DNA from: Gillisia sp. Hel_I_86
GTDB lineage: Bacteria > Bacteroidota > Bacteroidia > Flavobacteriales > Flavobacteriaceae
DNA length: 64,000 bases
Direction: 5' to 3'
Assembly (NCBI RefSeq): GCF_007827275.1
Contig: NZ_VISE01000001.1
Location: forward strand, 2,604,001 to 2,668,000
Shown piece after piece: positions 34,382 through 62,131 of the stretch. The notes under the pieces are model-generated. The model was not told where the DNA came from. It did not search any database and saw nothing but the letters and a program-made list of their open reading frames with translations. The position numbers were made by a program, and so were the translations under genes. Position 1 is the first letter of the stretch. Each line of letters opens with the position of its first letter.

Positions 34382-34531
34382 TGTATATCCGTAAAGTATC
34401 ATAAAATGATAAATAACGTCATTCTGAACTTGTTTCAGAATCTCATAGCACTAATAATCAATACAGTAAATAGAGACCCTGAAATGAATTCAGGGTGACA
34501 AAACAACTATAGGGCAAAAAACGGATATACA
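34382..34531 (+). mobile_element. 150-bp MITE-like element, copy 1
   Basis: Exact 11-bp terminal inverted repeats TGTATATCCGT / ACGGATATACA. Internal hairpins ATTCTGAA/TTCAGAAT (34421-34441) and ACCCTGAA/TTCAGGGT (34476-34496). It is flanked by a perfect 10-bp direct repeat AAAGCTATTT (34372-34381 and 34532-34541). It lies directly beyond trpA, whose stop codon falls in the right-hand duplication. It is non-coding. Confidence 0.88.
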
Positions 34532-34535
34532 AAAG

Positions 34536-35300
34536 CTATTTAATCGTTTTAATGAATTCTGGGATTTGCTCAATTCCATTTTTAGTTAGGTGTTTTATAA
34601 AAGCACTTCCAATAATAGCTCCATTGGAATATTCTGTAGCTTCTTTAAAACTTTTCTTGTCGCTTATCCCAAAACCAACTATTTGTGGATTCTTAAGTTG
34701 CATGTTATCTATTCGTTTAAAATAATCCTTAGTTTGATTTCCGAAACCAGAAGTTGCCCCGGTTACACTAGCGCTACTTACCATATAAATAAACCCGTGG
34801 GATACCGAATCTATAAAACGAATGCGCTCTTCTGAAGTTTGGGGCGTAATTAGAAATACATTGATGAGGTTGTGTTTTTCGAAAATAGCCTGATATTTTT
34901 CTGAATATACATCCACCGGGAGATCCGGAATTATCAACCCATCGATCCCAATCTCCTCACATTTTTTGCAGAATTCCTCCACTCCATATTGAAGTATCGG
35001 ATTAAAATATCCCATAATGATCAATGGGATATTCACTGTTTTTCGGATGTTCTTAAGTTGATGAAATAACTTTTCTGTGGTCATTCCATTTCTTAATGCC
35101 TGAGTGCTGCTTGCCTGAATGGTAGGGCCATCTGCGAGGGGATCGCTAAATGGCAAGCCGATCTCTATCATATCTACTCCATTCTTTTCAAGGTCTTGAA
35201 TAATAGATACGGTATCGTTAATTTGAGGATAGCCCGCTGTAAAATAGATGGAAAGAAGCTTTTTACCTTCTTGTAATTTCGATTGAATTCTATTCATCAC
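34536..35300 (-). CDS. trpA: Tryptophan synthase alpha chain
   Basis: Cleaves indole-3-glycerol phosphate to indole and passes it to TrpB. The 254 residues include the active-site Glu in MIEIGLPFSDPLADGPTIQ (Glu and Asp of the family), LSIYFTAGYP, GLIIPDLP and the phosphate-binding VGFGISDKKS. It is the last gene of the operon. The stop TAG lies inside the 10-bp target duplication of MITE copy 1, so insertion did not alter the protein. Confidence 0.97.
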   Translation of the reverse strand: MMNRIQSKLQEGKKLLSIYFTAGYPQINDTVSIIQDLEKNGVDMIEIGLPFSDPLADGPTIQASSTQALRNGMTTEKLFHQLKNIRKTVNIPLIIMGYFNPILQYGVEEFCKKCEEIGIDGLIIPDLPVDVYSEKYQAIFEKHNLINVFLITPQTSEERIRFIDSVSHGFIYMVSSASVTGATSGFGNQTKDYFKRIDNMQLKNPQIVGFGISDKKSFKEATEYSNGAIIGSAFIKHLTKNGIEQIPEFIKTIK

Positions 35301-35638
35301 TGTTTTTTTAATTCTTTTATAAAGTTTCCTTTTTGTTTATCATTTAGTAATCACGTCACCCTGAATTTATTTCAGGGTCTAAGAAAATAATTTTTTAAGT
35401 GTCCCAATGATCATAGTTACAGAATTTACATAGGTGTAATTATAGTAGAGTTTAGTAAATAGCTTAATGCGATCATTATCATTTATTTTAATAATTTTAA
35501 ACAATTAAAATAATTTGTTTTGTCCGTTCGAGCGCAGTCGAGAACTTTTTAGCTTAAAAGGGAGGTTTCGACTCCGCTCAACCTGACATTCCTCCTTCAC
35601 ATATTTTTTTTATATGAGGATAACAACTGACCTCTATA
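35301..35638. repeat. trpB-trpA intergenic region filled with repeats
   Basis: A half MITE unit (35352-35381, CACCCTGAA...TTTCAGGGT) and family A copy 2 (about 35510-35592) occupy much of this 338-bp gap. The remainder is AT-rich with no coding frame. The gap is unusually long for neighbouring trp genes. Confidence 0.7.
35510..35592 (+). repeat. Dispersed hairpin repeat family A, copy 2
   Basis: Core GAGCGCAGTCGAGAACTTTT, then AGCTTAAAAGGGAGGTTTCG and ACTCCGCTCAACCTGACAT. The two ends pair (CGAGCGCAGTCGA with TCGACTCCGCTCA, one mismatch). Other copies are at 28656-28732 (reverse) and 39691-39770. Confidence 0.75.
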
Positions 35639-36820
35639 TTATAAATTAAAGTATTCTATATAAGTGCTAAGATCCTTATCGCCACGTCCCGAAAGATTTA
35701 CAACCACAATATCATCTTTCTTGAATTTTCGATCTTCAAAAATAGCAAGCGCGTGAGAAGTTTCGATTGCCGGGATAATCCCTTCTAGCTTTGCCAACTT
35801 CTGCCCAGCTTTCATTGCATCTGCATCTGTTACAGAAATAAATTCTGCTCTTCCAGATCTGAATAGATTGGCATGCATCGGCCCAATTCCAGGGTAATCC
35901 AAGCCCGCAGAAATTGAATAAGGTTCTGTGATCTGTCCATCTGGAGTTTGCATTAATAAGGTTTTGCTTCCGTGGATAATGCCTTCTTTTCCCAATGCAG
36001 AAGTCGCAGCACTTTCACCAGATAGAACACCTTTTCCGGCAGCTTCCACGGCAATAATTCCCACTTCTGGATTATCCAAATAATGATAATAAATTCCTGC
36101 GGCGTTACTCCCTCCGCCTACACAAGCTACCACATAATCTGGCGCTTCCCTTCGTTCTTTTTCCTTCAATTGCACTTTAATTTCCTCGGAGATCACACTT
36201 TGAAATCGCGCCACCATATCTGGATAAGGATGAGGTCCTACTACAGAACCAATAATATAATGCGTGTCTACCGGATTATTTATCCAATCCCGTATAGCTT
36301 CGTTCGTGGCATCCTTTAGAGTTCTACTTCCAGATTTTGCTGGAATTACAGTAGCACCCAGCATTTTCATACGGGCAACATTTGGAGCTTGACGGTCAAT
36401 ATCTATTTCACCCATGTAAACGATGCATTCAATTCCCATCAGGGCACATACTGTAGCAGTGGCAACCCCGTGCTGTCCCGCACCAGTTTCGGCAATAATC
36501 CTGTTCTTGCCCAAACGTTTTGCCATTAAAATTTGGCCTATTGTATTGTTCACCTTATGAGCACCGGTATGACAAAGATCTTCACGTTTCAAGTAGATCT
36601 TGGTGTTGTATTTCTCACTTAATCTGGAAGCAAAATATAACGGAGTGGGTCTTCCTACATAATCTTTTAAAAGGTCCTTAAATTCCTTCTGAAAAGATGC
36701 TGACTGCATGATCTGTATATATTGCTGCCTTAATTCTTCAACATTGGGATACAGCATTTCCGGGATATAAGCTCCTCCAAATTCCCCGTAATAGCCTTTT
36801 TCGTCTGCCTGATATGTCAT
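35639..36820 (-). CDS. trpB: Tryptophan synthase beta chain
   Basis: PLP enzyme that joins indole and serine to give tryptophan. The 393-residue protein has the Schiff-base lysine in [15 protein letters not shown], the phosphate-binding [21 protein letters not shown] and [18 protein letters not shown] at the N-terminus. Its ATG is 16 nt from the severed original end of trpF (stop at 36837-36839), showing that the two genes were once tightly spaced. Confidence 0.98.
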
Positions 36821-36836
36821 ATTTTCTATTTTATAA

Positions 36837-36873
36837 TTAGCCCAAGCCTAATTTTAATTTGTCTTTAAATAAT
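36837..36873 (-). pseudogene. Severed 3' end of trpF
   Basis: Beyond MITE copy 2 the minus strand reads in the trpF frame as [12 protein letters not shown]-stop. Its first codons (AAA TTA TTT AA) repeat those at the present trpF break (AAG TTG TTT AA) with two silent differences, as expected of an aged target-site duplication. Confidence 0.7.
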
Positions 36874-37023
36874 TGAATATCCGTAAAGTATCCTATAATG
36901 ATAAATAACGTCATTCTGAACTTGTTTCAGAATCTCATAATACTAAGCATCAATACAGTAAATAGAGACCCTGAAATAAATTCAGGGTGACAAAACAACT
37001 ATAAGACGAGAAACGGATATACA
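36874..37023 (+). mobile_element. 150-bp MITE-like element, copy 2, inserted in trpF
   Basis: Ends TGAATATCCGT / ACGGATATACA (one mismatch). Both internal hairpins are conserved and length is 150 bp. Flanks show an imperfect 10-bp duplication (TTAAATAATT / TTAAACAACT, offset by 1-2 bases from the element ends). It supplies a new stop codon to trpF. Confidence 0.85.
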
Positions 37024-37663
37024 AATTAAACAACTTTAATTTTTGAGGGTCTTTTAAACCTGCTTCTATTTCAAATTTACTGTTCACATCCAGTCCGTTA
37101 AACAAATGTGATTTCCCCAACTTTTCGAGATGTGCATTGAATTCTTCTATTTTTAAAACTTCATTTAAACCAATTCCTCCACTTAGAAAGAATGGAGTAG
37201 AAGAGGGATATTTTTTTAAAAGCTCCCAATTGAAAGTGATTCCGTTCCCTCCTTTGTTTTTTCCTTGGGTATCGAAAAGGAAGAAATCTACAATACCTTC
37301 GTAAGGTTTAAGCTCCTCAAAATTGAAGCTTTCCTTTACGGAAAACACTTTTATAATCTCTACTGAATTATTCTGATCCAATGCTGCTCTTAATTTTTTG
37401 CAATAATCAGCTGATTCTTTTCCGTGAAGCTGAATGGCTTCAAAATTATATTTTCTAAGCTTTTCTAAAATAAATTTGATCCCGGCATCTACAAAAACGC
37501 CCGTTTTATTGATCGCTGGATCTATTTCCGGAATTTCTCCTGAAAAATTTCTGGAAGATTTTTCATAAAAGATAAAACCTAAATAATCGGGTTTTAAAGC
37601 GGCTACCTCCAGAATGTTTTCTGGCTGCTTCATGCCGCATATTTTCAGTTTGAGATCGCTCAT
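36950..37663 (-). CDS. trpF: Phosphoribosylanthranilate isomerase with MITE-encoded tail
   Basis: Amadori isomerase of tryptophan synthesis. Conserved: LKICGMKQPENI with the catalytic Cys, GFIFYEKSSR, VGVFVDAG-type segment (NKTGVFVDAG), FFLSGGIGLNE and FNGLDVNSKFEIEAGLKD. The 237 residues exceed the usual 205-215. The last 24 or so (from about NLYIRFSSYS to LYLLY) are translated from MITE copy 2; the original end, KDKLKLGLG, is stranded at 36837. The catalytic body is complete, so activity is likely kept. The start is 1 nt after trpC. Confidence 0.95.
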   Translation of the reverse strand: MSDLKLKICGMKQPENILEVAALKPDYLGFIFYEKSSRNFSGEIPEIDPAINKTGVFVDAGIKFILEKLRKYNFEAIQLHGKESADYCKKLRAALDQNNSVEIIKVFSVKESFNFEELKPYEGIVDFFLFDTQGKNKGGNGITFNWELLKKYPSSTPFFLSGGIGLNEVLKIEEFNAHLEKLGKSHLFNGLDVNSKFEIEAGLKDPQKLKLFNLYIRFSSYSCFVTLNLFQGLYLLY

Positions 37664-37664
37664 T

Positions 37665-38453
37665 TTAGTTACTTGCTAATTCTTGAATAAATTGAGCGGC
37701 GCTTTTTCCGGGATCATCGGTCTTCATAAAATTCTCTCCAATTAAAAAGCCTTGATACCCATAATTTTTTAGATCCTGAATAGCTTCCACACTGCTTATT
37801 CCACTTTCCGAAACCTTTACAAAATCGGTTGGGATCTTTTCTGAAAGCTGTTTGCTGATATCGGTGCTGACTTCAAAAGTTTTTAAATTTCTGTTGTTCA
37901 CTCCCAACATATCCAAACTTGGCATGATGGATTTTTCCAATTCTTCCAAGTTATGAACTTCTAAAAGCACTTCTAAATCCAGACTTTTAGCCAATTCAGA
38001 AAATGTTTTTATTTCATCTCGAGTCAACACAGCTGCTATTAGCAGAATAACATCTGCACCATAAGCTTTTGCTTCCAGGATCTGATATTCATCAATTATA
38101 AATTCCTTTCTCAACAAAGGCATTTTCCCAGCTGCTCTCGCCAAAATAAGATCATCCAACGAACCTCCAAAATATTTTCCATCTGTCAATACCGACATTC
38201 CGCACACCCCTGCATTTTCATACCCCAAAGCAACATCCTGTACATTAAGATCCTGATTGATCACAGATTTAGAAGGCGATCTTCGTTTATGCTCTGCAAT
38301 AACTCCGCTAGAACTATTTTTTAGGGCAGTTGCCAAAGAATTTGTTTTATAACCGAAAAGGGGATAATGTTCTAAATCTTCAGCAGAAATAAGCTTCTTT
38401 TTAAGAGTAACCTCATTTCGTTTATCAGCAATAATTTTATCTAGAATATTCAT
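37665..38453 (-). CDS. trpC: Indole-3-glycerol phosphate synthase
   Basis: Closes the indole ring from CdRP. The 262-residue protein has the catalytic lysine in IAEHKRRSPSKS, LRKEFIIDEYQI, VNNRNLKTFEV and the phosphate site SESGISS. The start at 38453 (MNILDKIIADKR) is the family norm. An extension to 38513 would be translated from MITE copy 3 and is rejected. It is 1 nt upstream of trpF. Confidence 0.97.
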   Translation of the reverse strand: MNILDKIIADKRNEVTLKKKLISAEDLEHYPLFGYKTNSLATALKNSSSGVIAEHKRRSPSKSVINQDLNVQDVALGYENAGVCGMSVLTDGKYFGGSLDDLILARAAGKMPLLRKEFIIDEYQILEAKAYGADVILLIAAVLTRDEIKTFSELAKSLDLEVLLEVHNLEELEKSIMPSLDMLGVNNRNLKTFEVSTDISKQLSEKIPTDFVKVSESGISSVEAIQDLKNYGYQGFLIGENFMKTDDPGKSAAQFIQELASN

Positions 38454-38472
38454 TTTATTGTTTTCAATATTA

Positions 38473-38621
38473 AGTATAACCGTAAAGTCTCGTAAAATGA
38501 TAAATAACGTCATTCTGAACTTGTTTCAGAATCTTATAATACTAAAAATTAATATAGTAAACTGAGACCCTGAAATAAATTCAGGGTGACGATACGACTA
38601 TAGTACATAAACAGGTATACA
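38473..38621 (+). mobile_element. 150-bp MITE-like element, copy 3, between trpD and trpC
   Basis: The most diverged of the five good copies: ends AAGTATAACCGT and ACAGGTATACA, 149 bp, both hairpins kept. No clear target duplication remains. Without it, trpD and trpC would be about 20-30 nt apart. Confidence 0.8.
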
Positions 38622-38631
38622 ATTCATTTAT

Positions 38632-39627
38632 TTATACAGCACTTAATTCTTGTAATTTCTTCAGTGCTATCAAAGCTTTTCCAGAATTCAATGATTCTTG
38701 TGCTTTCGTAAAACCTTCCATGGGTGTACATCCCGTAGAAGTTGCAATAGCCATGCCTGCATTGGCACAAACCACATTGTTTTGGGGAAGGGTACCTTTT
38801 CCTTTTAATACATCGACAAATATTTTAGCTGAATTTTCAATGGAGCTGCCACCCGAGATTTCTGAAGCTTTCAAAGCTTCCACTCCAAAATCTGAAGGGT
38901 GCAACATTCCTTCCGTAGCATTGGAAATAGTTTTCGTAGCACCAGTTAAAGAGATCTCATCGTAACCATCCAATGCGTGTAAAATAGTGAAGTTCTTATC
39001 GGTGTTCTGATAGAGATACCCGTACATTCTTGCCAATTCCAAACTAAAAACCCCCACCAACTGGTTCTTCGGAAATGCAGGATTTACCATGGGCCCCAAC
39101 ATATTGAAAAAGGTTTTTACCGCCAGGGATTTCCTGATAGGAGCAACATTTTTCATGGCCGGATGAAATAGGGGAGCGTGTAAAACACATATCCCGGCCT
39201 TATCTATACAACGCTCTAAAAAGTCGGCTTTATTGCTGAATTTGATTCCCAAAGCTTCCATCACATTTGAACTTCCACTTATGGAAGAAACTCCATAATT
39301 ACCATGCTTGGAAACTTTAATTCCTGCACCGGCAGTTACAAAAGAAGATAGGGTAGAGATATTAAAAGTGTTTTTTCCATCACCTCCTGTTCCACAAAGA
39401 TCTATCGCGTTATAATCACTAAGATCTACCGAAAGACACAGATTTAGCAAGGCATCCCGAAATCCTTCCAATTCATCTATAGTGATACTCCGCATCATAT
39501 AAACGGTTAGAAATGCCGCGATCTGACTCTCGTTATATTCTCCTCTCGAAATATTCACCAAGACTTCGCTGGCTTCCTGTTTCGAAATGGTTTCGTGATT
39601 GATTAACCTGTTAAGTATATGTTTCAT
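38632..39627 (-). CDS. trpD: Anthranilate phosphoribosyltransferase
   Basis: Transfers phosphoribosyl from PRPP to anthranilate. The 331-residue protein has the PRPP-binding DLCGTGGDGKNTFNIST, the anthranilate-site KHGNYGVSSISGSSNVMEALG (HGN and GS motifs) and MLGPMVNPAFPKNQLVGVF. It is a separate protein, not fused to TrpG as in enteric bacteria. It lies 185 bp after trpG; family A copy 3 takes up about half of that gap. Confidence 0.97.
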   Translation of the reverse strand: MKHILNRLINHETISKQEASEVLVNISRGEYNESQIAAFLTVYMMRSITIDELEGFRDALLNLCLSVDLSDYNAIDLCGTGGDGKNTFNISTLSSFVTAGAGIKVSKHGNYGVSSISGSSNVMEALGIKFSNKADFLERCIDKAGICVLHAPLFHPAMKNVAPIRKSLAVKTFFNMLGPMVNPAFPKNQLVGVFSLELARMYGYLYQNTDKNFTILHALDGYDEISLTGATKTISNATEGMLHPSDFGVEALKASEISGGSSIENSAKIFVDVLKGKGTLPQNNVVCANAGMAIATSTGCTPMEGFTKAQESLNSGKALIALKKLQELSAV

Positions 39628-39690
39628 TTGTCTAGATAAATTTATTTAGAGTTTTTAGATACTGAATACGATTTCTATTCAGTCATTTAA

Positions 39691-39770
39691 TATCTCGTTT
39701 TGTCTGTTCCAGCGCAGTCGAGAACTTTTAACTTAAAAAGAAGGTTTCGACTCCGCTCAACCTGATATCC
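39691..39770 (+). repeat. Dispersed hairpin repeat family A, copy 3
   Basis: ATCTCGTTTTGTCTGTT, then AGCGCAGTCGAGAACTTTT and GGTTTCGACTCCGCTCAACC. Same orientation as copy 2 and close to copy 1 reversed. It sits in the trpG-trpD gap. Confidence 0.75.
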
Positions 39771-39812
39771 TACTCAACATTGTAAATCTTTTATTGTTAT
39801 AAATTGTAATAG

Positions 39813-40445
39813 CTACTTTCTAACTTCCAAAACCCAGTTCTTCATTATTTGTTTTCCCATAGGAGTCAACACCGATTCCGGATGAAATTGAACCCCTTTT
39901 ACATCGTATTCCCTATGGCGCAAGGACATTACCTGCCCATTTTCATCGAAAGAGGTGGCTTCCAAGGCTCCCGGCAAATTTGGATCTACCACCCAGGAGT
40001 GATATCTCCCTACCATTAGTTCCTTAGCTATGTTTTTAAACAAGCTTTCATTTTCTACCGAAACATTGATCTTGGTGGAAACCCCGTGAAAAACCGATTC
40101 TAAGTTGATCAACTTTCCGCCGAAAACTTCTCCAATGGCTTGTTGTCCTAAACAAACGCCCAAAATGCTTTTTGTTGGTGCGTAGCGAATAATTATCTCT
40201 TTTAGTAAACCAGCTTCATCGGGAATTCCGGGACCGGGAGAAAGCAAGATCTTGTCGTATTTGGCGATCATGTCCAGATCCACTTCGTTATTTCTAACTA
40301 CTGTTACTTCGCAATCCAATTCTTCCAAGTAATGCACCAAATTATATACAAAGGAATCGTAATTGTCTATGACCAAAACCGAAGTTCTCTTACCAGTTTG
40401 AAATTCGACCTTTTGTGCTATGTTTTTATTTTCGTTCACTTTCAT
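39813..40445 (-). CDS. trpG: Anthranilate synthase component II (glutamine amidotransferase)
   Basis: Supplies ammonia to TrpE from glutamine. The 210-residue protein has VLVIDNYDSFVYNLVHYLEE, the oxyanion LLSPGPGIP, nucleophile Cys in LGVCLGQQAIGEVFGG and the His/Glu pair in GVQFHPESVLTP. The start at 40445 (MKVNENKN) leaves 1 nt after trpE but gives about 22 residues before the usual N-terminus (VLVIDNYDSF); no later ATG exists before the core, so the extension seems real. Confidence 0.95.
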   Translation of the reverse strand: MKVNENKNIAQKVEFQTGKRTSVLVIDNYDSFVYNLVHYLEELDCEVTVVRNNEVDLDMIAKYDKILLSPGPGIPDEAGLLKEIIIRYAPTKSILGVCLGQQAIGEVFGGKLINLESVFHGVSTKINVSVENESLFKNIAKELMVGRYHSWVVDPNLPGALEATSFDENGQVMSLRHREYDVKGVQFHPESVLTPMGKQIMKNWVLEVRK

Positions 40446-40446
40446 T

Positions 40447-41841
40447 TTAAATTTCTTCAGCAATTTCAATTGCCTGAGTTAATGCGCCCAACTTGTTATA
40501 TACTTCCTGCAATTCATTTTCTTCATTAGATTCTGAAACAATTCCTGCTCCCGCCTGATAATGCAATTGATGGTTCTTGCTCACAAAAGATCTAATGATG
40601 ATGGCATGGTTATAATTTCCGTTGAAATCCATGAATCCAATGGCACCCCCATAAGCACTTCTATTTACATTCTCATATTTTTCGATGAGCGTCATTGCGC
40701 TATGTTTTGGTGCTCCGCTAAGCGTTCCTGCAGGAAAAGTATCGGCAACAATTTGCATGGTGCTGATTTTCCCATTTTTCGTCCCTGTAACTTTACTAAC
40801 CAAATGAATAACATGGGAGAAAAATTGCACTTCCCTGTATTTCTCCACTTTTACATTGGTGCTATGTCTGCTTAAGTCATTTCTGGCAAGATCCACCAAC
40901 ATCACATGTTCTGCATTTTCCTTATCGTCTTCAGAGAGTTTTTTAGCCAATGCTGCATCTTGTTCATCATTTCCGGTACGCTTAAAAGTTCCGGCTATTG
41001 GATGGATCTCCGCTTTTCCGTTTGAAACCACTAATTGCGCTTCCGGAGAACTCCCGAAGATCTTAAAGTCGCCATAATCGAAATAGAACAAATAAGGGGA
41101 TGGATTGATACTTCTTAATGCGCGATATACATTAAATTCGTCTCCTTTAAAACTTTGAGAAAACCTGCGGGATAATACCAATTGAAATACATCCCCGCGC
41201 TGACAATGCTTTTTCCCCAAAGCTACATTTTCTTTAAATTCTGAATCGGTTAAGTTTGAAATCGCAGCATTTTCCCTTCTGAAATTATAGCTCGCGAAGT
41301 TCTTCACTTTTATTAACTGCGTAATTTCTTCCAGCTTGTTTTCTGAATTGAATTTGTGGTCGAAAATATAAGCTTCGTTATTGAAATGGTTGATGGCTAT
41401 GATGTTTTGATACACTGCGTAGTAGACTTCCGGGATTTCAAGATCCCCTTTCTTTTTGGTGATCTTAATATTTTCGAAATATTGAACCCCATCATATGCA
41501 GTATATCCGAAAAGACCGTTATTTATAAACTTGAAATTGGAATTCCCTGTTTTAAATAAGGAAGAGAAATTTTGAATAACGGCCGGGACTTTAATTTCAG
41601 AAGTTATAGAAGTCACTTTTTTTGAACCATCCGGATAAAGCTCTTCAATAATGTCATTTTTTACCTTTATGGAGGCGATGGGATTGCAACATATATAGGA
41701 AAAACTATTATCGTTGGCATGATAATCGCTACTTTCCAGCAATAAGCTATTTGGATATTTATCCCGAATTTTGAGATACACGCTCACGGGAGTAAGCGTA
41801 TCTGCAAGTAGTTTTTTATAAGTGGTCTTTAAGGTATACAT
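40447..41841 (-). CDS. trpE: Anthranilate synthase component I
   Basis: Converts chorismate to anthranilate with ammonia from TrpG; first committed step of the pathway. The 464-residue protein shows the tryptophan feedback motif SLLLESSDYH, and the chorismate-binding core with VLSRRFSQSF, PIAGTFKRTG, LVDLARNDL, TFPAGTLSGAPKHSAM and AYGGAIGFMDF. The intact LLES element suggests feedback inhibition. It is the first enzyme gene and follows the attenuator. Confidence 0.97.
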   Translation of the reverse strand: MYTLKTTYKKLLADTLTPVSVYLKIRDKYPNSLLLESSDYHANDNSFSYICCNPIASIKVKNDIIEELYPDGSKKVTSITSEIKVPAVIQNFSSLFKTGNSNFKFINNGLFGYTAYDGVQYFENIKITKKKGDLEIPEVYYAVYQNIIAINHFNNEAYIFDHKFNSENKLEEITQLIKVKNFASYNFRRENAAISNLTDSEFKENVALGKKHCQRGDVFQLVLSRRFSQSFKGDEFNVYRALRSINPSPYLFYFDYGDFKIFGSSPEAQLVVSNGKAEIHPIAGTFKRTGNDEQDAALAKKLSEDDKENAEHVMLVDLARNDLSRHSTNVKVEKYREVQFFSHVIHLVSKVTGTKNGKISTMQIVADTFPAGTLSGAPKHSAMTLIEKYENVNRSAYGGAIGFMDFNGNYNHAIIIRSFVSKNHQLHYQAGAGIVSESNEENELQEVYNKLGALTQAIEIAEEI

Positions 41842-41850
41842 GTTATTGCT

Positions 41851-41894
41851 TCAAAAAAAATTAAATAAAAAAGGCTTGTCGTGAGACAAGCCTT
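41851..41894 (-). terminator. trp operon attenuator (rho-independent terminator)
   Basis: On the minus strand: stem AAGGCTTGTC / GACAAGCCTT (41894-41885 and 41880-41871) with loop TCAC, followed by TTTTTTATTTAATTTTTTTT. A segment at the end of the leader ORF, GTCGTGA, can pair with TCACGAC of the loop and 3' arm, giving a rival antiterminator. It lies between the leader peptide and trpE. Confidence 0.88.
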
Positions 41895-41918
41895 GTATGA
41901 GAAAATACTATAGCAGTG

Positions 41919-41981
41919 TTACTTCACGACGTTTTGACGTAAGTTGTTCCACCACCAAGTATGTACTGTATTATTTTTCAT
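41919..41981 (-). CDS. trpL: trp operon leader peptide with three tandem Trp codons
   Basis: A 20-codon frame, ATG to TAA, whose peptide begins MKNNTVHTWWWNN; codons 9-11 (41957-41949) are TGG TGG TGG. It sits between a strong promoter and a terminator hairpin just upstream of trpE, the classic arrangement for attenuation. Stalling at the Trp codons when charged tRNA-Trp is scarce would leave GTCGTGA free to pair with TCACGAC and open the terminator. The ATG is only 5 nt from the -7 box, so the peptide is probably read from a leaderless mRNA. Confidence 0.88.
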   Translation of the reverse strand: MKNNTVHTWWWNNLRQNVVK

Positions 41982-41986
41982 CGGTT

Positions 41987-42017
41987 CAAATATAGGTATC
42001 CAAATTGAATTGACAAA
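41987..42017 (-). promoter_or_regulatory. trp operon promoter
   Basis: Minus strand TTTG (42017-42014), 19 nt spacer, TATATTTG (41994-41987): an exact fit to the Bacteroidota -33/-7 consensus. Predicted transcription start is 1-4 nt before the leader-peptide ATG. Confidence 0.8.
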
Positions 42018-42061
42018 GGTTTTTTTCAACTGAAACGCTATTTGATCTTTATGATTAATAT

Positions 42062-42631: not shown

Positions 42632-42651
42632 AACAATTTTCTTTTTTTGGT

Positions 42652-43284: not shown

Positions 43285-43288
43285 AGTA

Positions 43289-43741: not shown

Positions 43742-43754
43742 TTGTTTAGACAAA

Positions 43755-43773
43755 ATTTGTACATACAAATGTA
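43755..43773 (-). promoter_or_regulatory. MarR operator overlapping its -7 promoter box
   Basis: Perfect palindrome ATTTGTA-CA-TACAAAT (43755-43770) overlaps TACATTTG on the minus strand (43773-43766), a TAnnTTTG match. A repressor bound here would block RNA polymerase. Confidence 0.65.
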
Positions 43774-43876
43774 GTTGAATTAATGAAATGAAAATCCAAT
43801 TTTTTGTTAAAGTTTTTTAAAGAGGAACAAGGGGCGTTGTGAATTTTAAAATAAATGAAAATAATATGCGTTAAAT

Positions 43877-43951
43877 CCCCGAGACATGTCCTCGAATTTC
43901 TTAAAATTATTTTCCAATGCTTACTTGTGGGCTTGCCCCCGAGGTTCTTGA
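43877..43951. repeat. Dispersed repeat family D, copy 2
   Basis: CCCCGAGACATGTCCTCGAA, then GTGGGCTTGCCCCCGAGG and TTCTTGA. Same motif order as 26632-26704. Non-coding, between the MarR and rhodanese genes. Confidence 0.65.
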
Positions 43952-44058
43952 CTAAAATGGGATTGTTTAAAATTATTGAATTTAGGACTAATTAAGTAAA
44001 TTGGTTTACATTATATTTACGCCTCAATTGATTATTAGTTCAGCATAAAAATTAAAAT

Positions 44059-44370
44059 ATGAAAAACCTTACACAAGAACAGTGGTCCAAAGAAGTACGC
44101 GAAGATGAAAAAGCGGTAATTCTAGATGTACGCACAGAAGAAGAATTTATTGAAGGCTACATTCCAAACGCAAAAAATATAGATATATATAAAGGACAAG
44201 GATTTTTGGATGAAGTTGAAAAGCTGGATAAGTCTAAAAATTACTATGTGTATTGCAGGTCTGGTGCGAGAAGTGCTCAAGCTTGCGCATTAATGAAACA
44301 ACAAGGTTTTGATAATGCTTCCAATCTTATGGGAGGTATTACAGATTGGGAAGGTGATATTCAAAAATAA
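44059..44370 (+). CDS. Rhodanese-like sulfurtransferase, single domain
   Basis: A 103-residue cytosolic rhodanese domain: AVILDVRTEEEFIEGYIPNA, the active-site loop YVYCRSGARS with the catalytic Cys, and LMGGITDWEGD. It could carry persulfide sulfur or detoxify cyanide. The next gene, a lipoprotein with a related fold but no Cys, starts 10 nt downstream. Confidence 0.92.
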   Translation: MKNLTQEQWSKEVREDEKAVILDVRTEEEFIEGYIPNAKNIDIYKGQGFLDEVEKLDKSKNYYVYCRSGARSAQACALMKQQGFDNASNLMGGITDWEGDIQK

Positions 44371-44380
44371 CTTTTTGTAT

Positions 44381-44761
44381 ATGGTTAGAGTTTTTTTTAG
44401 TTTAGTGTTAATCACTGTTTTTTCGCAAGGCTGTGTCCAACCCAAAGCGAAGGAGATTCATGCAATCACCCCAGCTGAGGTTCGGACTGAAATTAAATAT
44501 GCAGCCGATAAAACCGAGGTTCAATCTAAGAAAGATTTCAAAAAATCCCATCTTATTAATGCTGAGAGCCTGGTTGCTAAGAAAAATGTAAGAGAACGTT
44601 TAAATAAGCTGGACAAGGGTTTGCCAATTGCTGTATATTTTACTTCTGAAAATAAATCCCACGAAGCTGCCTTAATCCTACAAGATCTAGGATTTCAGCA
44701 AATTTATATTTTAGATGGGGGAATTAAGAAATGGACAATGGGAAAGATAGAAGCCAAATAA
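44381..44761 (+). CDS. Rhodanese-like lipoprotein lacking the catalytic cysteine
   Basis: A 126-residue protein with a lipobox signal peptide (VFSQGCVQP), then a rhodanese-like core: SHLINAESLVAKKNVRERLNK and LDKGLPIAVYFTSENKSHEAA, where the loop that should hold Cys reads YFTSENKS, ending IYILDGGIKKWT. With no active Cys anywhere in the loop, it is probably a binding or scaffold version. The start at 44381 keeps the signal peptide. Likely co-transcribed with the active rhodanese before it. Confidence 0.75.
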   Translation: MVRVFFSLVLITVFSQGCVQPKAKEIHAITPAEVRTEIKYAADKTEVQSKKDFKKSHLINAESLVAKKNVRERLNKLDKGLPIAVYFTSENKSHEAALILQDLGFQQIYILDGGIKKWTMGKIEAK

Positions 44762-44999
44762 AAATAGGCATGTCCAATTAAGATATCAGACTGCTTCGCT
44801 TTTGGATAATAGAAATTGGGCTTGTTCTTAATCCATCAAAAACAAGCATATCGAATTTTACAACACTACTAAGTTCTAGAATTATAATTCTAATTGAAAA
44901 AGCAAGCGGTAAATATTCAAATACATCGTTTCTTCGCACCATTGCCAATACAAGAATAACTTTTAAATTTGTAACCGATACTAATGAAATAAAATTTTT
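44762..44999 (-). other. Gene-free stretch with a possible small remnant frame
   Basis: No recognised gene. On the minus strand one frame stays open for about 75 codons and includes ATG at 44942 to TAA at 44778 (54 residues, MVRRNDVFEYLPLAF at the start). No homology is recognised and codon use is not convincing. MITE copy 5 lies directly upstream of this frame and could have cut a longer gene. Confidence 0.3.
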
Positions 45000-45148
45000 T
45001 GTATATCCGTTTTTTGTCCTAATAGTTCTCTCGTCACCCTGAATTTATTTCAGGGTCTTAATATTGTATTGATTTACATTGTAATGAGATTCTGAAACAA
45101 GTTCAGAATGACGTCCTTTTTCAGTTTAGGATACTTTACGGACAAACA
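45000..45148 (-). mobile_element. 150-bp MITE-like element, copy 5 (reverse orientation)
   Basis: Ends TGTATATCCGT and ACGGACAAACA (partly decayed), 149 bp, with both hairpins in reverse order relative to copies 1-4. A 12-bp direct repeat AATAAAATTTTT abuts both ends (44988-44999 and 45149-45160). Confidence 0.85.
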
Positions 45149-45257
45149 AATAAAATTTTTCTTTCTAATAGATAGCCTTATTATTGAATATTATTTTTTA
45201 GGTTTTTTTAGAATTGCATAATTTTTTTATTTTTGAAGCGTTTATCAGAAGAACAAC

Positions 45258-45287
45258 TTTGTAATAGCTATTAAAACAATATATTTA
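45258..45287 (+). promoter_or_regulatory. Probable promoter of the outer-membrane barrel gene
   Basis: TTTG at 45258-45261, 18-nt spacer, TATATTTA at 45280-45287 (one mismatch to TAnnTTTG), 37 nt before the ATG. Confidence 0.5.
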
Positions 45288-45324
45288 CCGAATATAGCCA
45301 CCTATTAGACTAACCTCTTACATA

Positions 45325-46044
45325 ATGAATAAATTAGTTTTCGCCCTCCTTATAAGCTTAACTAGCTTTTCTTTTTCACAAATGAATGCCCAACAATTTC
45401 AAGTTGGTGTAAAAGGAGGAATCAATAAAACATCTGGTGGACAAATTACTGGAATAGATTCAGGGCTTCCTTTACAATATACAAGCGATACTTTTGAAGC
45501 AGTAGGAAATATTGGTTACCATGGTGGGGGTTGGGTGCAAGTTAATTTTGGTAAATTTTTTATAAGGCCAGAACTTGTTTATTCAAATCTTGAATCTACG
45601 TTCGAATTTCAGAATTATGATGCTTTATATAATATCGAGGAGTTAAGCGTGCCGGTTCTCGTTGGGTATAATGTATATGGACCATTAGATCTTTATGTGG
45701 GGGCAGCCTATAAGAATATAATTGATGTTAGCTTATTTGGGTTGGAAGATGTACCTAACGCCACGCCACCTTCAGGATTAGTTGTACAGAACACTCCTTT
45801 TTCTGCCCAGATAGGCGCAAAAGCTCAATTCGGAATTATTGGGGTAGATGTAAGATATGATTATTCTCTTTCTTCTGAAGAAAAACAGAATTTAGATTTT
45901 TTTAACGGTGGGAATTTTGGAATTAATAAAGCAACATTCGATGATCCTAGATTAAACCAACTTATAGTTAGCCTTACTTTGAAATTATGGGATTCTGAAA
46001 ACAAAGGTAAGAGACGGAGAAAGGGCGGAAGCTGTTATTTCTAA
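45325..46044 (+). CDS. Outer-membrane beta-barrel protein, PorT-like
   Basis: A 239-residue exported protein: signal peptide about residues 1-22 (ending MNAQQ), then alternating strands of a small barrel (FQVGVKGGINKTSGG, YHGGGWVQVNFGKFFIRPEL, YNIEELSVPVLVGYNVYGPLD in parts, FGIIGVDVRYDYSLSSE). It ends in a basic tail GKRRRKGGSCYF. It matches the PorT/OMP_b-brl_2 type seen in Bacteroidota. No partner gene is adjacent. Confidence 0.8.
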   Translation: MNKLVFALLISLTSFSFSQMNAQQFQVGVKGGINKTSGGQITGIDSGLPLQYTSDTFEAVGNIGYHGGGWVQVNFGKFFIRPELVYSNLESTFEFQNYDALYNIEELSVPVLVGYNVYGPLDLYVGAAYKNIIDVSLFGLEDVPNATPPSGLVVQNTPFSAQIGAKAQFGIIGVDVRYDYSLSSEEKQNLDFFNGGNFGINKATFDDPRLNQLIVSLTLKLWDSENKGKRRRKGGSCYF

Positions 46045-46064
46045 TTAAGATGCATTTTATAAAC

Positions 46065-46096
46065 AAAAAGGAGCAAATTTTATTTTGCTCCTTTTT
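46065..46096. terminator. Bidirectional terminator
   Basis: Perfect 13-bp stem AAAAAGGAGCAAA / TTTGCTCCTTTTT between convergent genes, with A/T runs on both sides. Confidence 0.9.
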
Positions 46097-46099
46097 TAT

Positions 46100-46696
46100 T
46101 TAACAATTTTTGTACTTATCATTAAGACTTTTTCCCGCTAAAATTAAAGGGATTATTTTATCTATTCTATTTTGTTTGGTGGCTTTTCTTTTGGCTTCAA
46201 TAATATATACGGAGTATTCTTTTTGTTTCCCTGGGGTAAGTGTATCAAAAGCTTTGTTAAGCTCAATATTAGCATTTAATTCCTGTTGTAGTTCATTGGG
46301 AATTTCAACTTTTTTGGGAGTGGTTAACTTTGCTGTTTTTCCTTGATCGTGGAGGCTTATAGTTTCTTCCACATATCGTTTTAGAATATCCAAATGGATT
46401 TCAGAAGTTTCGTCAAACTTAATTTGTCTCATCGCTTGGGTCTTTCCCTCTTGGGCATTCACCAATAATTTTGTGTTTTTTTGAAGCAATGCTCCTTGAA
46501 AAAACCATAAACCAAAGTGATTCTTAAAAGCACCAATTCCAATCAAGTTTTTGCTGTCTTTGGTGTATACCGGAGCACCCCATTTTATGGTTTCAGATAG
46601 GTTGCAAGAAAGCAACAACTGTCTTAGCTTAAGCAATTGAGCTTTCCATTTTGGATGAGCATCTATGTATTGCCCTACATTTTCAATCTTGGCCAT
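46100..46696 (-). CDS. YdeI/DUF1801-family protein
   Basis: A 198-residue protein with an N-terminal DUF1801 domain (DAHPKWKAQLLKLRQLL, SETIKWGAPVYTKDSKNLIG, HFGLWFFQGALL) and a C-terminal YdeI/OmpD-associated segment (FDTLTPGKQKEYSVYIIEAKR, then RIDKIIPLILAGKSLN). Members have been linked to resistance to antimicrobial peptides, but the biochemical role is unclear. It starts 8 nt after pepT and is probably co-transcribed. Confidence 0.85.
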   Translation of the reverse strand: MAKIENVGQYIDAHPKWKAQLLKLRQLLLSCNLSETIKWGAPVYTKDSKNLIGIGAFKNHFGLWFFQGALLQKNTKLLVNAQEGKTQAMRQIKFDETSEIHLDILKRYVEETISLHDQGKTAKLTTPKKVEIPNELQQELNANIELNKAFDTLTPGKQKEYSVYIIEAKRKATKQNRIDKIIPLILAGKSLNDKYKNC

Positions 46697-46704
46697 AACA
46701 ATAA

Positions 46705-47946
46705 TTATTTATGTTTTTCTGAAGTCAGTTCTGCAATTTTAATGATTACTTCTGTAGCTCTTTGCATGCTTTCCACAGGAACATATTCGTACCTTCCATG
46801 GAAATTATGGCCCCCGGCGAAAATATTGGGACAAGGTAATCCCATAAAACTCAATTGGGAACCATCTGTCCCGCCCCTAATTGGTTTTATGATTGGCGTG
46901 ATATTTAGTTGCTTCATAGCTTCTTCAGCAATATCCACAATATGCATTACAGGTTCTACTTTTTCCCGCATATTAAAATATTGGTCTTTAATTTCGATAC
47001 GTATCGCTTCCCTTTCATGTTGGGAATTAATTTCCTGAGCGAGATTGCTAATCATTTCCTTTCTAGCTTCAAAATGGCTTTTATCGTGATCCCTAATAAT
47101 ATATTTTAGGGTTGTTTCTTCTACATCTCCATCGATATCCGTTAAATGGAAAAAACCTTGTCTATCCTCGGTATGTTCCGGCGTCTCCAATCTTGGAAGG
47201 GAATTAATGAAATCCTGTGCGATATACATGCTGTTTATCATTTTGTCCTTGGCATATCCCGGATGTACGATCTTTCCTTTAATTTTCACAACAGCTGCTG
47301 CAGCATTGAAATTTTCATATTCCAGTTCTCCAATTTGGCTACCATCCATCGTGTAGGCCCATTCGGCCCCAAATTTTTTAACGTCAAATTTATGGGCGCC
47401 TCTTCCTATTTCTTCATCTGGTGTAAATCCCACGCGGATCTTTCCATGCGGAATTTGCGGGTTAGTTATTAAATATTCCATGGCGGTTACTATTTCGGTA
47501 ATTCCTGCTTTGTCATCTGCGCCTAGTAAGGTAGTTCCGTCTGTAGTGATCAAGGTTTGTCCTTTGTATTGCAAAAGATCATCAAAATAATCTGGCGATA
47601 GGATAATGTCTTGTTCTTTATTCAAGATAATATCTTTTCCGTCATAATCTTCAATTATTTGGGGTTTCACGTTTGTTCCGGTAAAATCTGGAGATGTATC
47701 AAAGTGCGATACAAAACCAATTACAGGAACCTCATGGGCAACATTAGCGGGCAGCGTCGCCATGATATATGCATTTTCATCTATTTCCACTTCCTCCATT
47801 CCAATTTTTTTAAGCTCTACGGCAAGCCTATTAGCGAGATCCCATTGCTTTTCTGTGCTAGGGGTTTTATTGCTGTCTGGATCACTTTGGGTATCTATAG
47901 TTACGTAACTAATAAACCTATTGATGATATTTTTTTTTGAAATCAT
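46705..47946 (-). CDS. pepT: Peptidase T (tripeptide aminopeptidase)
   Basis: Zinc M20-family exopeptidase releasing N-terminal residues from tripeptides. The 413 residues carry the zinc-binding His in [15 protein letters not shown], the bridging Asp in [15 protein letters not shown], catalytic Glu in [16 protein letters not shown] and a dimerisation domain. [19 protein letters not shown] and [14 protein letters not shown] close the active site. Length is normal. It shares a unit with the YdeI-like gene. Confidence 0.97.
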
Positions 47947-48045
47947 TTAAAATATTTAATTATTAGTAATAATTTATGTTAATAAATCAGTGATAAGTTC
48001 ATATAGGATACTCATTGGCTTATAACAATGGCCCAAAATTTTCAC

Positions 48046-48053
48046 TATCTTTG
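48046..48053 (+). promoter_or_regulatory. -7 promoter box of the TonB receptor gene at 48077
   Basis: TATCTTTG, an exact TAnnTTTG match, 23 nt before the ATG. Confidence 0.5.
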
Positions 48054-48076
48054 ATTAAAATCAAAAATATAAACTT

Positions 48077-50995
48077 ATGAAGAATTTTTACGTAATGTTC
48101 TGTTTGTTTTTTGTTGCTTGGGCTGCTCAAGCTCAAACACAAGAAATCACGGGAACTGTTATAGATGACCAAGCACAACCTTTAGGGGGCGTATCTGTTG
48201 CTATTGAAGGCACCAATAGAGGAACAATTACAGATTTTGATGGAAAATTTACTATTGAAGCAAGCATGGGGCAAACCTTGGTGTTTTCATTTGTAGGATT
48301 TGACACCAAAAAAATGGAGATTCAGAGTGCTGTGATGAATGTAACAATGGTTTCGGGAATGGCTTTAGGTGAAGTAATGCTGGTAGGTTCCCGTAATCCA
48401 AGTAGGACCGTTGTGGAATCAACAGTGCCCATTGATGTATTGGATATAAAAGAATTAGCTTCAGCAGTACCACAAGTGAATTTAAATCAGATGCTGAATT
48501 ATGTAGCACCTTCATTTACATCGAATACCCAAACAATTTCAGATGGAACAGATCATATAGATCCTGCTTCTTTAAGGGGATTGGGACCAGATCAAGTGTT
48601 GGTACTTGTAAATGGAAAGAGAAGGCATAACACTTCTCTGGTAAATGTAAATGGAACCTTTGGTAGGGGAAGTGTAGGAACCGATTTAAATGCGATACCT
48701 GCGGCTGCTATTCAACGAATAGAGGTTTTAAGGGATGGGGCTGCAGCGCAATATGGGTCTGATGCTATTGCCGGGGTTATAAATATTGTGTTGAATAAAA
48801 ATGTAAATGAATTGAATCTTACTGTGACTACGGGGGCAAATTTCACTGAAAATGCAAACGACCAAACAGGAGGAGTAGATGGAGAAACAGTAAATGTGGC
48901 TGCCAGTTATGGGATTCCATTAGGTGAGAATGGTGGGTTTGTTAATTTCTCCGGGGATTTTGACTATCGTGAAGATTATAGTAGAATGAAGGAATGGGAA
49001 GGCGAAATTTTTAAAGGGTACAACGCCATTGAAAATGTTGCATTTAATGCAGGAGCAGATATTGCCAGTTTAACCGATGCTGAAATTCAGCAGTATGCTC
49101 AAAACGTGCCTTATTTTAGTGAGCAACTAAAAGATGATATTAATAATGCCCCAGATAGAGCAACTTTACAGTCGTTGTTAAACTTTGATGTTACTGAAGA
49201 TGAATTAAATGCGCGTGGGCAAGAAAGAAGCGATTATAATATGAGAGTGGGACAATCTGCACTTAGGGGTGGAAGGTTCTTCGCTAATTTTTCATTGCCA
49301 TTGGACGATGCTGGAACCGAGCTTTATTCTTTTGCGGGAATTAGTTCAAGAAATGGAAATTCTGCAGGATTCTATAGGTTGCCAAACCAAAATAGGACAT
49401 ATACACCTATTTATATCAATGGTTTTTTACCAGAGATCAACTCTAAAATCAATGATAAATCCATTGCAGCAGGGATAAAAGGAAAAATTGGGGACTGGGA
49501 TGTGGATTTTAGTAATACATGGGGAAGAAATGAATTCTTATATCTTATTTCCAATACCTCGAACGCTTCGCTAAAACAAGCAAGCCCTACTACTTTTGAT
49601 GCGGGAGGATTTTCTTTTGCTCAAAACACGACCAATTTAGATATTTCTAATTTTTACGAGGATATGTTTTCTGGAATGAATGTCGCTTTTGGTGGAGAGT
49701 ATAGGCTGGAAAATTATGAAATAGTCGCTGGGGAAAGAGCTTCTTATGAGCAGTATACAGAAAATGGAACTCCTATAACATTAGCTTCTCAGTCGCCTTC
49801 AACTGACTTCTTTGGTCGTGGTAGACCAGGAGGTTCACAAGTATTCCCAGGGTTTAGTCCAAAGAACGAATTGTCCAGAGAACGAAGTAGTATTGCTGGT
49901 TATTTTGATATTGAAGCAGATCTTACTGAACAATTTTTGTTAACCTTTGCCACTAGATTTGAAGATTATTCAGATTTCGGTTCTACAATTAACTTTAAAT
50001 TGTCATCAAGATATAAGTTAACAGATAATATTAATATTAGGGGAGCAGCCAATACAGGTTTTAGAGCCCCTTCTTTGCATCAGTTAAATTTTAACTCAAC
50101 TTCTACAATTTTTGATAATGAAGGAAATCCTCAAGAAGTAGGAACTTTTTCTAACGATAGTCGTGCCGCAAAATTATTAGGGATCCCTCAATTAAAGGAG
50201 GAAACATCTAGAAGTTTGAGTGTTGGATTTACTGCACAAATTCCAGATGCAAATCTTTCTTTGACAGTGGATGGTTATTTTGTAGCTATAGATGATAGGG
50301 TAGTTTATACGGGGCAATTTCAACCTACACCAGATCCCGGGACTGGCACCAACGGTGTTCCGGCTGTATATTCTGGAGCACAATTAGAACTTTTTAATTT
50401 GTTAAGACAAGCAAATGCCACCGCTGCATCATTCTTTGCCAATGCCATAGATACCGAGTCCAAAGGTGTGGACTTGGTCTTAACTCACAATGCAACATTT
50501 AACAACGGATTCAGATTGAAATCTGATCTTGCTGCCACTTTATCCAAAACAAAGCAAGTAGGAGATATTAAAGCTTCAGACCTATTAATTAGAGCTGAGA
50601 AAGTAGGCACTTATTTTCCAGAAGACAGTAGGGTGTATTTAGAAGAAGCAGTTCCAAGAACAAAAGTGAACCTTACCAATAGCTTAACTGCCGGAAAATT
50701 CAATGTTTTTCTAAGAAATGTGTTCTTTGGAGAAGTTACCGAAGCTACCACCACTATTGCCAACCAACAAGTATTTGGTTCTAAGATCGTGACAGATTTG
50801 TCCCTAGGATATAAAGTATCTGAACCTCTTACGCTTACAGTAGGAGCAAATAATTTATTGGATGTGTATCCAGATAGGGCAGAACAAGATTTTGGAAATA
50901 GAAGCGATGGTCGTTTCGATTGGTCCAGACGGGCACAGCAATTTGGAATTGGAGGACGATTCCTTTTTGCAAGACTTGCATTTACGCTGAAGTAA
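48077..50995 (+). CDS. TonB-dependent receptor with CarboxypepD_reg-like domain
   Basis: A 972-residue outer-membrane transporter. Signal peptide (ending AAQAQTQ), carboxypeptidase-regulatory-like domain ([20 protein letters not shown]), plug ([57 protein letters not shown]) and a barrel ending [16 protein letters not shown]. There is no SusD gene downstream, so it is not a standard glycan pair. Substrate unknown. A good terminator follows. Confidence 0.93.
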
Positions 50996-51016
50996 AAACA
51001 ACTATTTATAAATTTT

Positions 51017-51042
51017 AAAAAACAGCCTTCGGGCTGTTTTTT
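51017..51042 (+). terminator. Rho-independent terminator of the TonB receptor gene
   Basis: Stem AAAAACAGCC / GGCTGTTTTT with a stable TTCG loop and a run of T. It follows the stop by 22 nt. Confidence 0.9.
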
Positions 51043-51065
51043 TATGCAGATGATTAATGGAAGTA

Positions 51066-51215
51066 TGTATATCCGTAAAGTGTCATAAAATAATAAATAA
51101 CGTCATTCTGAACTTGCTTCAGAATCTAATAAGACCAAGAATTAATATAATAAAATGAGACCCTGAAATAAATTCAGGGTGACGAAAGAACTATAGGACA
51201 TAAAATGGATACACA
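51066..51215 (+). mobile_element. 150-bp MITE-like element, copy 4
   Basis: Ends TGTATATCCGT / ATGGATACACA (two mismatches), exactly 150 bp, both hairpins kept. Flanked by AATGGAAGT on both sides (9 of 9; 51056-51064 and 51216-51224). It is between a terminator and pyrD. Confidence 0.87.
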
Positions 51216-61858: not shown

Positions 61859-62131
61859 TTTTATGGTCATATTAGGCATGTCGAAATATGGAGAGATACT
61901 AAATAATGTATATCCGCTTTTCGTCAAACAAGGCACTTGACCACGTTGGCATACTGAACTACTTTCAGGGTCTGTACTGGATTAAATGGGATACTGAAAC
62001 AAGTTATGTATGACGAGTAATCTGAGCTGTCATTCTGAAGGAAACGTAGTGGACTGAAGAATCTCAATAAAACAGCATCAATTTAACTAGAGATCCCTCC
62101 CAGCGTCGGGATGACATTTGATTAATACAAC
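61859..62131. repeat. Gene-free stretch with decayed repeats
   Basis: Begins with a MITE end TGTATATCCG (61907-61916) in the copy-5 orientation, followed by broken forms of both hairpins (CATACTGAA...TTTCAGGGT and GATACTGAAACAAGTT) to about 62015; the other end is lost. Then come GTCATTCTGA (about 62031-62040) and GAGATCCCTCCCAGCGTCGG (about 62091-62110), half units of other families. Confidence 0.6.

Follow-up and report, generated by a model that had tools for sequence, protein, structure and literature searches.

The window analysed here, a stretch of 64,000 bp from the single contig of Gillisia sp. Hel_I_86 (NZ_VISE01000001.1, positions 2,604,001 to 2,668,000), contains trp genes among which, and beyond which, a repeat of about 150 bp recurs (Table 1). 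All five copies listed in a preliminary description of this DNA were recovered at the same coordinates and with the same lengths; a sixth copy and a degenerate relic had been overlooked there. Copy 1 is located between the gene at 33351-34010 and the 3' end of trpA, and its two hairpins, here designated REP1 and REP2, carry their tags outermost, that is, form a head-head dimer. The REP2 tag, TGTC in this copy, is CGTC in most copies. At gathering thresholds, the sole Rfam match in the window is the Bacteroid-trp leader, with none for the repeat.

Table 1. Miniature elements (MITEs), REP hairpins and an altered gene in the window
Feature	Position	Strand	Remarks
MITE copy 1, 150 bp	34382..34531	+	10-bp flanking duplication AAAGCTATTT
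REP1 of copy 1	34417..34444	+	tag CGTC, 8-bp stem ATTCTGAA/TTCAGAAT, 5-nt loop CTTGT, tail CTC
REP2 of copy 1	34473..34500	-	tag TGTC, 8-bp stem ACCCTGAA/TTCAGGGT, 5-nt loop, tail CTC
Single CGTC REP	35354..35381	+	trpB-trpA spacer, without MITE ends
MITE copy 2, 150 bp	36874..37023	+	inserted in the 3' end of trpF
trpF	36950..37663	-	reading frame terminates within MITE copy 2, giving an altered C-terminus
MITE copy 3, 149 bp	38473..38621	+	trpD-trpC spacer, decayed ends
MITE copy 4, 149 bp	45000..45148	-	12-bp duplication AAAAATTTTATT, left-end subtype TGTTTGTCCG
MITE copy 5, 150 bp	51066..51215	+	exact 9-bp duplication AATGGAAGT
MITE copy 6	62764..63219	+	an insert splits hairpin 2; the 9-bp duplication TAAAAAGAT is exact
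Degenerate MITE relic	61907..62025	-	starts TGTATATCCGC; by eye, far boundary approximate
Free copy of the module interrupting hairpin 2	23355..23521	+	two REPs, tags facing inward

According to the preliminary description, the copies end in inverted repeats and three of them have direct repeats touching these ends. The ends are real as a property of the family (TGTATATCCGT...ACGGATATACA, imperfect in many copies), but both are present in exact form in just one of the five copies. Similarly, the duplications of copy 1 and of copy 4 (given originally as AATAAAATTTTT, its form on the opposite strand) touch the ends, whereas that of copy 5 is exact but separated from the left end by one base. The duplication of copy 2 is eroded (TTRTTTAA by eye, with a duplication score of just 3.5), and in the flanks of copy 3 no duplication was found (score 0).

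Orthologous sites in congeners are clearly empty for three of the window copies. The copy 1 site is unoccupied in all 11 comparable congeners, one of which (G014) has the uninterrupted target GTTAGAGTATGGTTAAAGCTAT; at the copy 2 site, the 260 bp preceding trpB are free of MITEs in all 15 congeners examined; and the copy 5 site is unoccupied in five of five comparable congeners, the interval measuring 312 bp here and 151-154 bp in four of them (312 - 153 = 150 + 9). Copy 4 is merely absent: none of nine comparable congeners has a MITE there, but the intervals differ in other ways too. Occupation of the same place in relatives, named in the preliminary description as evidence against mobility, is seen in part at the copy 3 site, where MITE-like sequence occurs in three of 12 congeners (G003, G006 and G012) and in none of the other nine. 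Since copy 3 is common to these three genomes at the same place, it is an old insertion.

The repeat as a genome-wide family of miniature transposons

A BLAST search with copy 1 against the single contig of 4,245,106 bp that makes up the genome, a check proposed at the outset, returned at least 51 matches at E<=1e-3, and a second query revealed further matches beyond these. Placement of the ends by local alignment in the fetched candidates gave 65 end pairs, one of which (386149-387014) was removed because of a spurious left end. As 40 of 271 candidates from the copy 1 query and 40 of 254 from the second query were scored, the resulting 64 delimited copies are a lower bound, and seeding by likeness to copy 1 biases this set towards copies with intact REPs. 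The copies fall into three length classes: 29 of 146-152 bp, with a mean identity of 82.8%, 16 of 158-175 bp, and 19 of 259-1147 bp, which contain inserts in those cases that were examined. At no more than one mismatch, TGTATATCCGT occurs at 188 sites in the genome, compared with 65 for a reversed-pattern control. When flanks were joined, an open frame spanned the junction in 4 of 36 cases by a weak stop-to-stop criterion, a result that was set aside.

Duplications were assessed by comparing each left flank with the right flank of the same copy, the right flanks of other copies serving as the control, in 63 copies (copy 3671996, for which a flank is missing, was left out). Scores of at least 8 were obtained for 21 of the 63, against 0.26 expected, and scores of at least 6 for 31, against 1.89 expected; in 16 of the 63 this comparison detected no duplication. 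Counting the duplication together with the bases left unmatched at the ends, the best geometries have a register of 10 or 11, which is what 8-9 bp with one extra base on each side would produce; a duplication of 8-9 bp with a single unmatched base per side is among these best geometries. The family thus agrees with the definition of MITEs, being short, non-coding, multicopy and near-constant in length, with terminal inverted repeats, target duplications and empty sites. The original proposal that these sequences moved as units is upheld by the defined ends, the duplications and the empty sites.

REP hairpins inside the element

The hairpins of the MITE fit the CGTC class of REPs in tag, 8-bp stem, 5-nt loop, 3-nt tail and arrangement as a head-head heterodimer; REP1 and REP2 both lie within the limits applied here, namely a CGTC (or TGTC/CCTC) tag, a stem of 8-9 bp, a loop of 4-5 nt and a 3-nt tail. 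The genome has 170 canonical REPs, 79 of which could be placed, as they lie in DNA fetched around MITEs (the other 91 lie outside that DNA); 69 of these are inside MITE copies and 10 outside. Within the window, 10 of the 12 REPs are in MITEs. A strict head-head pattern, whose spacer range was set around the MITE spacer and therefore favours MITE dimers, occurs as 20 dimers in the genome (40 strand-wise matches). Eighteen of them are in delimited MITEs, and the remaining two (C1:3084846 and C1:3226197) have, by eye, recognisable but decayed MITE arms. The loop of REP1 holds another palindrome in 22 of the 64 copies, and at orthologous sites (own copy 1055541 compared with G003, own copy 3357992 with three congeners) the loop has been replaced in place.

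Between copies, the REP cores are more conserved than the arms. In an alignment of 28 own copies (out of the 29 in the 146-152 bp class) and one copy from G043, the mean pairwise identity of the 28 is 95.5% for REP columns, 75.9% for arms and spacer and 79.9% for terminal repeats, figures that favour REP conservation because copies chosen by length omit replaced loops. At orthologous sites, strong preferential conservation is found at just one of five. This is the trpD-trpC site, where across four species the REPs vary in 3 of 52 columns, as against 51 of 97 in the rest of the element, and are 96-98% identical, compared with 78-81% for the neighbouring coding DNA. Six further shared-site sets were aligned and four of them were counted along with the trpD-trpC set, own_87623/G006_L316 and G005_L353/G006_L333 being left out as they align only in part. 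In these four sets the identity is 0.89 (409/459) for REPs and 0.84 (556/660) for the rest, and the REPs are less conserved than the rest in two of nine pairs; the pooled p-value for these sets draws on pairs that are non-independent. The difference is small and partly reversed, and does not establish conservation of REPs after insertion as a general rule.

Two explanations of what keeps the element bear on these data. The REP hairpins may be an RNA or DNA regulatory element maintained by the host, for instance a stabiliser of mRNA 3' ends, and spread by transposition. The high identity of REP columns among the 28 own copies and the near-invariance of the REPs at the trpD-trpC site are in line with this explanation, as are a compensatory stem difference in the trpB-trpA spacer and the folding of four sequences as RNA at z -5.2 to -7.3; still, we consider it rather unlikely in view of the bias introduced by length-chosen copies, the behaviour of the four other orthologous sets and the frequent replacement of REP1 loops. 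Alternatively, REP cores could be kept alike not by function but by gene conversion, or by repair templated on hairpins, between the numerous REPs of the genome, for which the number of canonical REPs and the replacement of loops by other palindromes at orthologous sites would provide some grounds. A unit of 25-30 bp offers little length for recombination, and the loops are conserved too, which repair templated by the arms does not explain, so that this explanation is likewise doubtful.

Candidate parent and mobiliser

A full-length IS with the ends of the repeat, for which a search had been recommended in the preliminary description, is present in the genome: TGTATATCCGT...ACGGATATACA inverted pairs lie exactly 998 bp apart at six places. 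These are near-identical ISs, and as all six have C before and G after the 998-bp unit, the length of the IS is taken to be 1000 bp. It encodes a transposase of 305 aa assigned to the IS1595 family by both NCBIfam NF033547 (188.7 bits, cut-off 75) and Pfam PF12762 (80.1, cut-off 27). By eye and without a control, duplications of 8-9 bp flank five of the six copies, four being of 9 bp (one of them mismatched) and one of 8 bp; no duplication was seen by eye at the sixth. Duplications in the IS1595 family are of about 8 bp, and both the IS, at 8-9 bp by eye, and the MITE geometries of 8-9 bp agree with this; the duplication register is the same for the MITEs and their own IS.

The consensus MITE ends match the ends of this IS at 17/20 and 18/20 positions with the correct handedness, and the left-end subtype TGTTTGTCCG matches at 15/20. 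The bases just outside the ends are C and G in the IS and mostly T and A in the MITEs. One of the matching IS ends reaches into the transposase gene and takes in its final codons; the MITE therefore resembles an IS in which other sequence has taken the place of the middle. The 150-bp repeats are thus real miniature transposons that share their ends with a full-size IS1595-family IS of the same genome, and the family very probably consists of non-autonomous DNA transposons derived from such an IS, with a CGTC REP pair inside. In comparison with IS1595 (ISXO2-like) ISs of Bacteroidota, the MITE is alike in ends, handedness and duplications of 8-9 bp but has no transposase gene, its interior consisting of two REPs.

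Other ISs fit the MITE ends equally well (L092, 18/20 and 17/20), and the own IS is therefore a candidate parent that is not singled out. IS1595-like relatives in other Bacteroidota have related ends, those of the Bacteroides type differing more. Where their matches are longer, the other IS1595-like transposases of the genome are 56% and 22-29% identical, and the exact sequence TGTATATCCG is absent from their loci (L201-L214). As the IS copies are nearly identical, compared with the 82.8% identity among MITEs, most of the MITEs may predate the present IS. No transposase match at E<=1e-60 was found in seven MITE-bearing congeners (G003, G005, G006, G008, G012, G014 and G015), four of which are drafts of 93-99% completeness, and the congeners that do have such a match (G010 and G011) have no match to the MITE. 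A likely mobiliser is this IS1595-family IS of the same chromosome, and its location outside the window is as had been anticipated.

The hairpins invite comparison with the REPINs of the RAYT system, in which REP doublets are dispersed as units, as they are here; unlike REPINs, the MITE has DDE-type ends and target duplications, and no link to a RAYT was found among the Y1 loci that were read. Fixed ends and duplications are not known as hallmarks of RAYT activity. That the copies are scattered REP/BIME-type hairpins mobilised by a RAYT, their apparent ends being incidental, would be compatible with the hairpins being REPs and with the 13 Y1_Tnp matches in the genome, one of which (C1:2130761) is RAYT-like; the duplications and the empty sites speak largely against it, and it was rejected as highly improbable. 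CGTC REPs do not flank the RAYT-like gene, which is flanked by other palindromes, and among the 10 of 13 Y1 loci read with 1500-bp flanks, nine have no canonical CGTC REP and one has a single REP about 650 bp away; the ends of the insert in hairpin 2 are also absent from these 10 loci. The same absence of association is reported in the accessible text of Di Nocera et al. 2013 (PMC3733652). An IS4-type mobiliser, proposed in the preliminary description and favoured by the exactness of some duplications over 10-12 bp, is almost certainly wrong and was rejected, as the ISs with these ends in the genome encode an IS1595-family transposase (NF033547) and the register of 10-11 fits 8-9 bp plus one base on each side.

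With an IS1595-family IS as the mobiliser, the ends of the MITE would be IS ends, one being TGTATATCCGTAAA...CCTAA and the opposite one TGTATATCCGTTT..TGTCC; in the IS, the latter holds the last transposase codons. A DDE transposase of the IS1595 type, acting in trans, would bind these ends and move the unit into AT-rich, mostly intergenic targets, and each insertion would come to be flanked by duplications of some 8-9 bp plus about one extra base per side. The ends then decay, as is seen at the old copy 3 site, and leftover REP dimers could come to look free-standing. We infer both that the own IS1595 transposase itself causes the movement and the route by which the REP pair entered the MITE.

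Recurrence in Bacteroidota and relation to known repeats

In a set of 40 genomes searched for relatives, which includes the own genome, 14 yield a match to copy 1 at E<=1e-5. Within this set, matches spanning most of the element do not extend beyond the genus, and those outside it (G020, G021 and G026) cover parts of at most 87 positions; at locus L232 of G020, a REP dimer with decayed IS1595-like ends is recognisable by eye. Of 11 genomes reached via named records, seven match, with full-length copies in two Christiangramia MAGs. The MAG of Christiangramia sp. LH_M82 encodes a transposase that is 87% identical and has 44 MITE matches. Twenty Christiangramia copies among the best matches were fetched, 18 from LH_M82 and two from the other MAG, and their ends were placed by explicit end patterns; 17 (one of them from the other MAG) could be delimited and three have no end pair. 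Duplication scores of at least 8 were obtained for 9 of the 17, against 0.06 expected. The mean identity of 16 fetched LH_M82 copies is 95.5%, a value biased upward by taking the best matches first.

The same anatomy recurs in Draconibacterium orientale between the ends of an IS1595 subtype of its own. This species (Bacteroidia, Marinilabiliales) was counted as another class of Bacteroidota. Its genome has at least 11 loci of this other subtype, with ends TGAATATCCG...CGGATATTCA as read for four of them, and 10 MITE copies of 150 or 159 bp, with ends of the TGAATGTCCG/TGGATGTCCG type to the CGGATATTCA/CGGATAATCA type, each holding a REP pair. In the 159-bp form a palindrome replaces the REP loop, as in the own genome, and the spacer part TGATTATTAGTG is, by eye, common to the MITEs of both. 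Duplications reach a score of at least 6 in 7 of the 10 copies (0.89 expected), at least 7 in five (0.67 expected) and at least 8 in two (0.33 expected), a signal that is clear at the lower thresholds and weak at the highest. Apart from the ten copies and a further, partial one, 19 loci were read in this genome (L366-L384, mostly single REPs): 18 have no IS end within 200 bp, and the nineteenth (L382) adjoins one of the ten copies.

REPs are also found without the element. Congeners that have no full-length MITE still have canonical REPs (G007 15, G013 14, G010 10, G002 3, G001 2 and G004 1), and the head-head-like dimers at L233 and L287 have no IS1595-type ends nearby. Since many single REPs, and some dimers, lack such ends, the MITE is to be regarded as a vehicle for REP pairs rather than as the demonstrated source of all REPs. 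The name G. forsetii presumably denotes the species currently called Christiangramia forsetii. It is listed among the CGTC-positive species in the accessible text of Di Nocera et al. 2013 (PMC3733652), and the CGTC REPs described there share with the present ones the CGTC tag, 8-bp stem, 5-nt loop, 3-nt tail, head-head heterodimers and conserved spacer. They differ in that no associated transposase is reported in that text, for which reason their spread was left open in the 2013 survey, while the dimers described here lie inside a transposon with identified ends.

MITEs of this kind are already known, and what is new is the combination of an IS1595-family MITE with a CGTC REP pair as cargo; no report of an IS1595-derived MITE carrying such a pair was found in the open-access PMC literature, and a term search of the accessible text of a review of prokaryotic MITEs (PMC10969869) gave no occurrence of IS1595. 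The closest precedent is QMITE2 of Coxiella burnetii, which, in the accessible portion of its description (PMC5896051), is likewise a MITE, of 150-190 bp, with variable duplications of 7-11 nt and a REP inside, but the REP is of the GTAG type, whereas the present REPs form a pair of the CGTC type and a candidate for the parent IS has been identified. Two other MITEs of Bacteroidota, as far as the accessible parts of their descriptions go, are BrickBuilt of Porphyromonas gingivalis, which unlike the present element holds a 23-nt tandem repeat (PMC4596501), and a MITE of Cardinium, whose parent IS, by contrast, belongs to the IS982 family (PMC9769881).

We tentatively propose, while giving it somewhat less than an even chance, that CGTC REP pairs are carried recurrently, throughout the phylum, by IS1595-family MITEs: DDE transposition would spread them as dimers with outward tags, the ends would rot, and the cores would persist, whether through selection or through exchange between REPs, while their loops stay open to other palindromes. 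If true, this phylum-wide reading would mean that CGTC REPs, or at least their dimers, do have the transposase reported as missing. The MITE provides a concrete and testable vehicle, which could explain the outward orientation and the conserved spacer of CGTC dimers, and it carries a warning that seemingly free REP dimers may be MITEs with decayed ends.

MITEs and REPs in the trp operon

The 4.3 kb of the trp operon listed in the table hold three MITEs, the non-autonomous elements of about 150 bp with IS1595-type ends, together with a single REP, a CGTC-tagged palindrome. The C-terminus of trpF is altered because of a MITE insertion near the 3′ end of the gene. The stem of the REP in the trpB-trpA spacer differs compensatorily (C:G versus A:T) in two congeners, in one of which another palindrome occupies the loop. 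A Bacteroid-trp leader RNA (RF01692) is also found in the window.

Positions of the repeats and associated features
Feature	Position	Copies or counterparts
trp operon segment	window 34382-38621	
trpF	window 36950-37663	
REP, trpB-trpA spacer	window 35354-35381	loci L263 (congener G006), L266 (congener G005)
Bacteroid-trp leader RNA	window 41885-42001	
Second module	window 23355-23521; ~62888-63176	Gillisia contig C1, e.g. 1520838, 3866275
Tandem MITE array (L041)	G000:C1:3357482-3358156	
RAYT-like gene	G000:C1:2130761-2131012	

A second module inside hairpin 2

An end of a second module was detected in 18 of the 65 pairs of left and right MITE ends in the Gillisia genome, and its insertion point in the second hairpin is constant across MITEs of different subtypes. 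The shortest forms of this module measure about 150-170 bp and have termini near GACCCGTGATAAAAAAATTATCTAGCG and ACGTCAATGGT, with no obvious inverted ends. At 23.3 kb of the window, the module occupies another palindrome, not hairpin 2 of a MITE.

Related elements and other repeat classes

Draconibacterium orientale (NZ_CP007451.1, loci L355-L364) carries 10 IS1595-type MITEs with a CGTC REP pair, and in the 159-bp form a REP loop is replaced by a palindrome. In Gillisia, four copies of the MITE lie in tandem at one locus, repeating about every 170 bp. The palindromes flanking the RAYT-like gene are of the type GTGCGGAATTGCATTCCGTGC, a repeat class different from the CGTC REPs. Ends of the type TGTATATCCGT enclose other interiors at loci L080, L082, L172, L176, L179 and L189, which possibly represent additional families of MITEs belonging to the same IS group.
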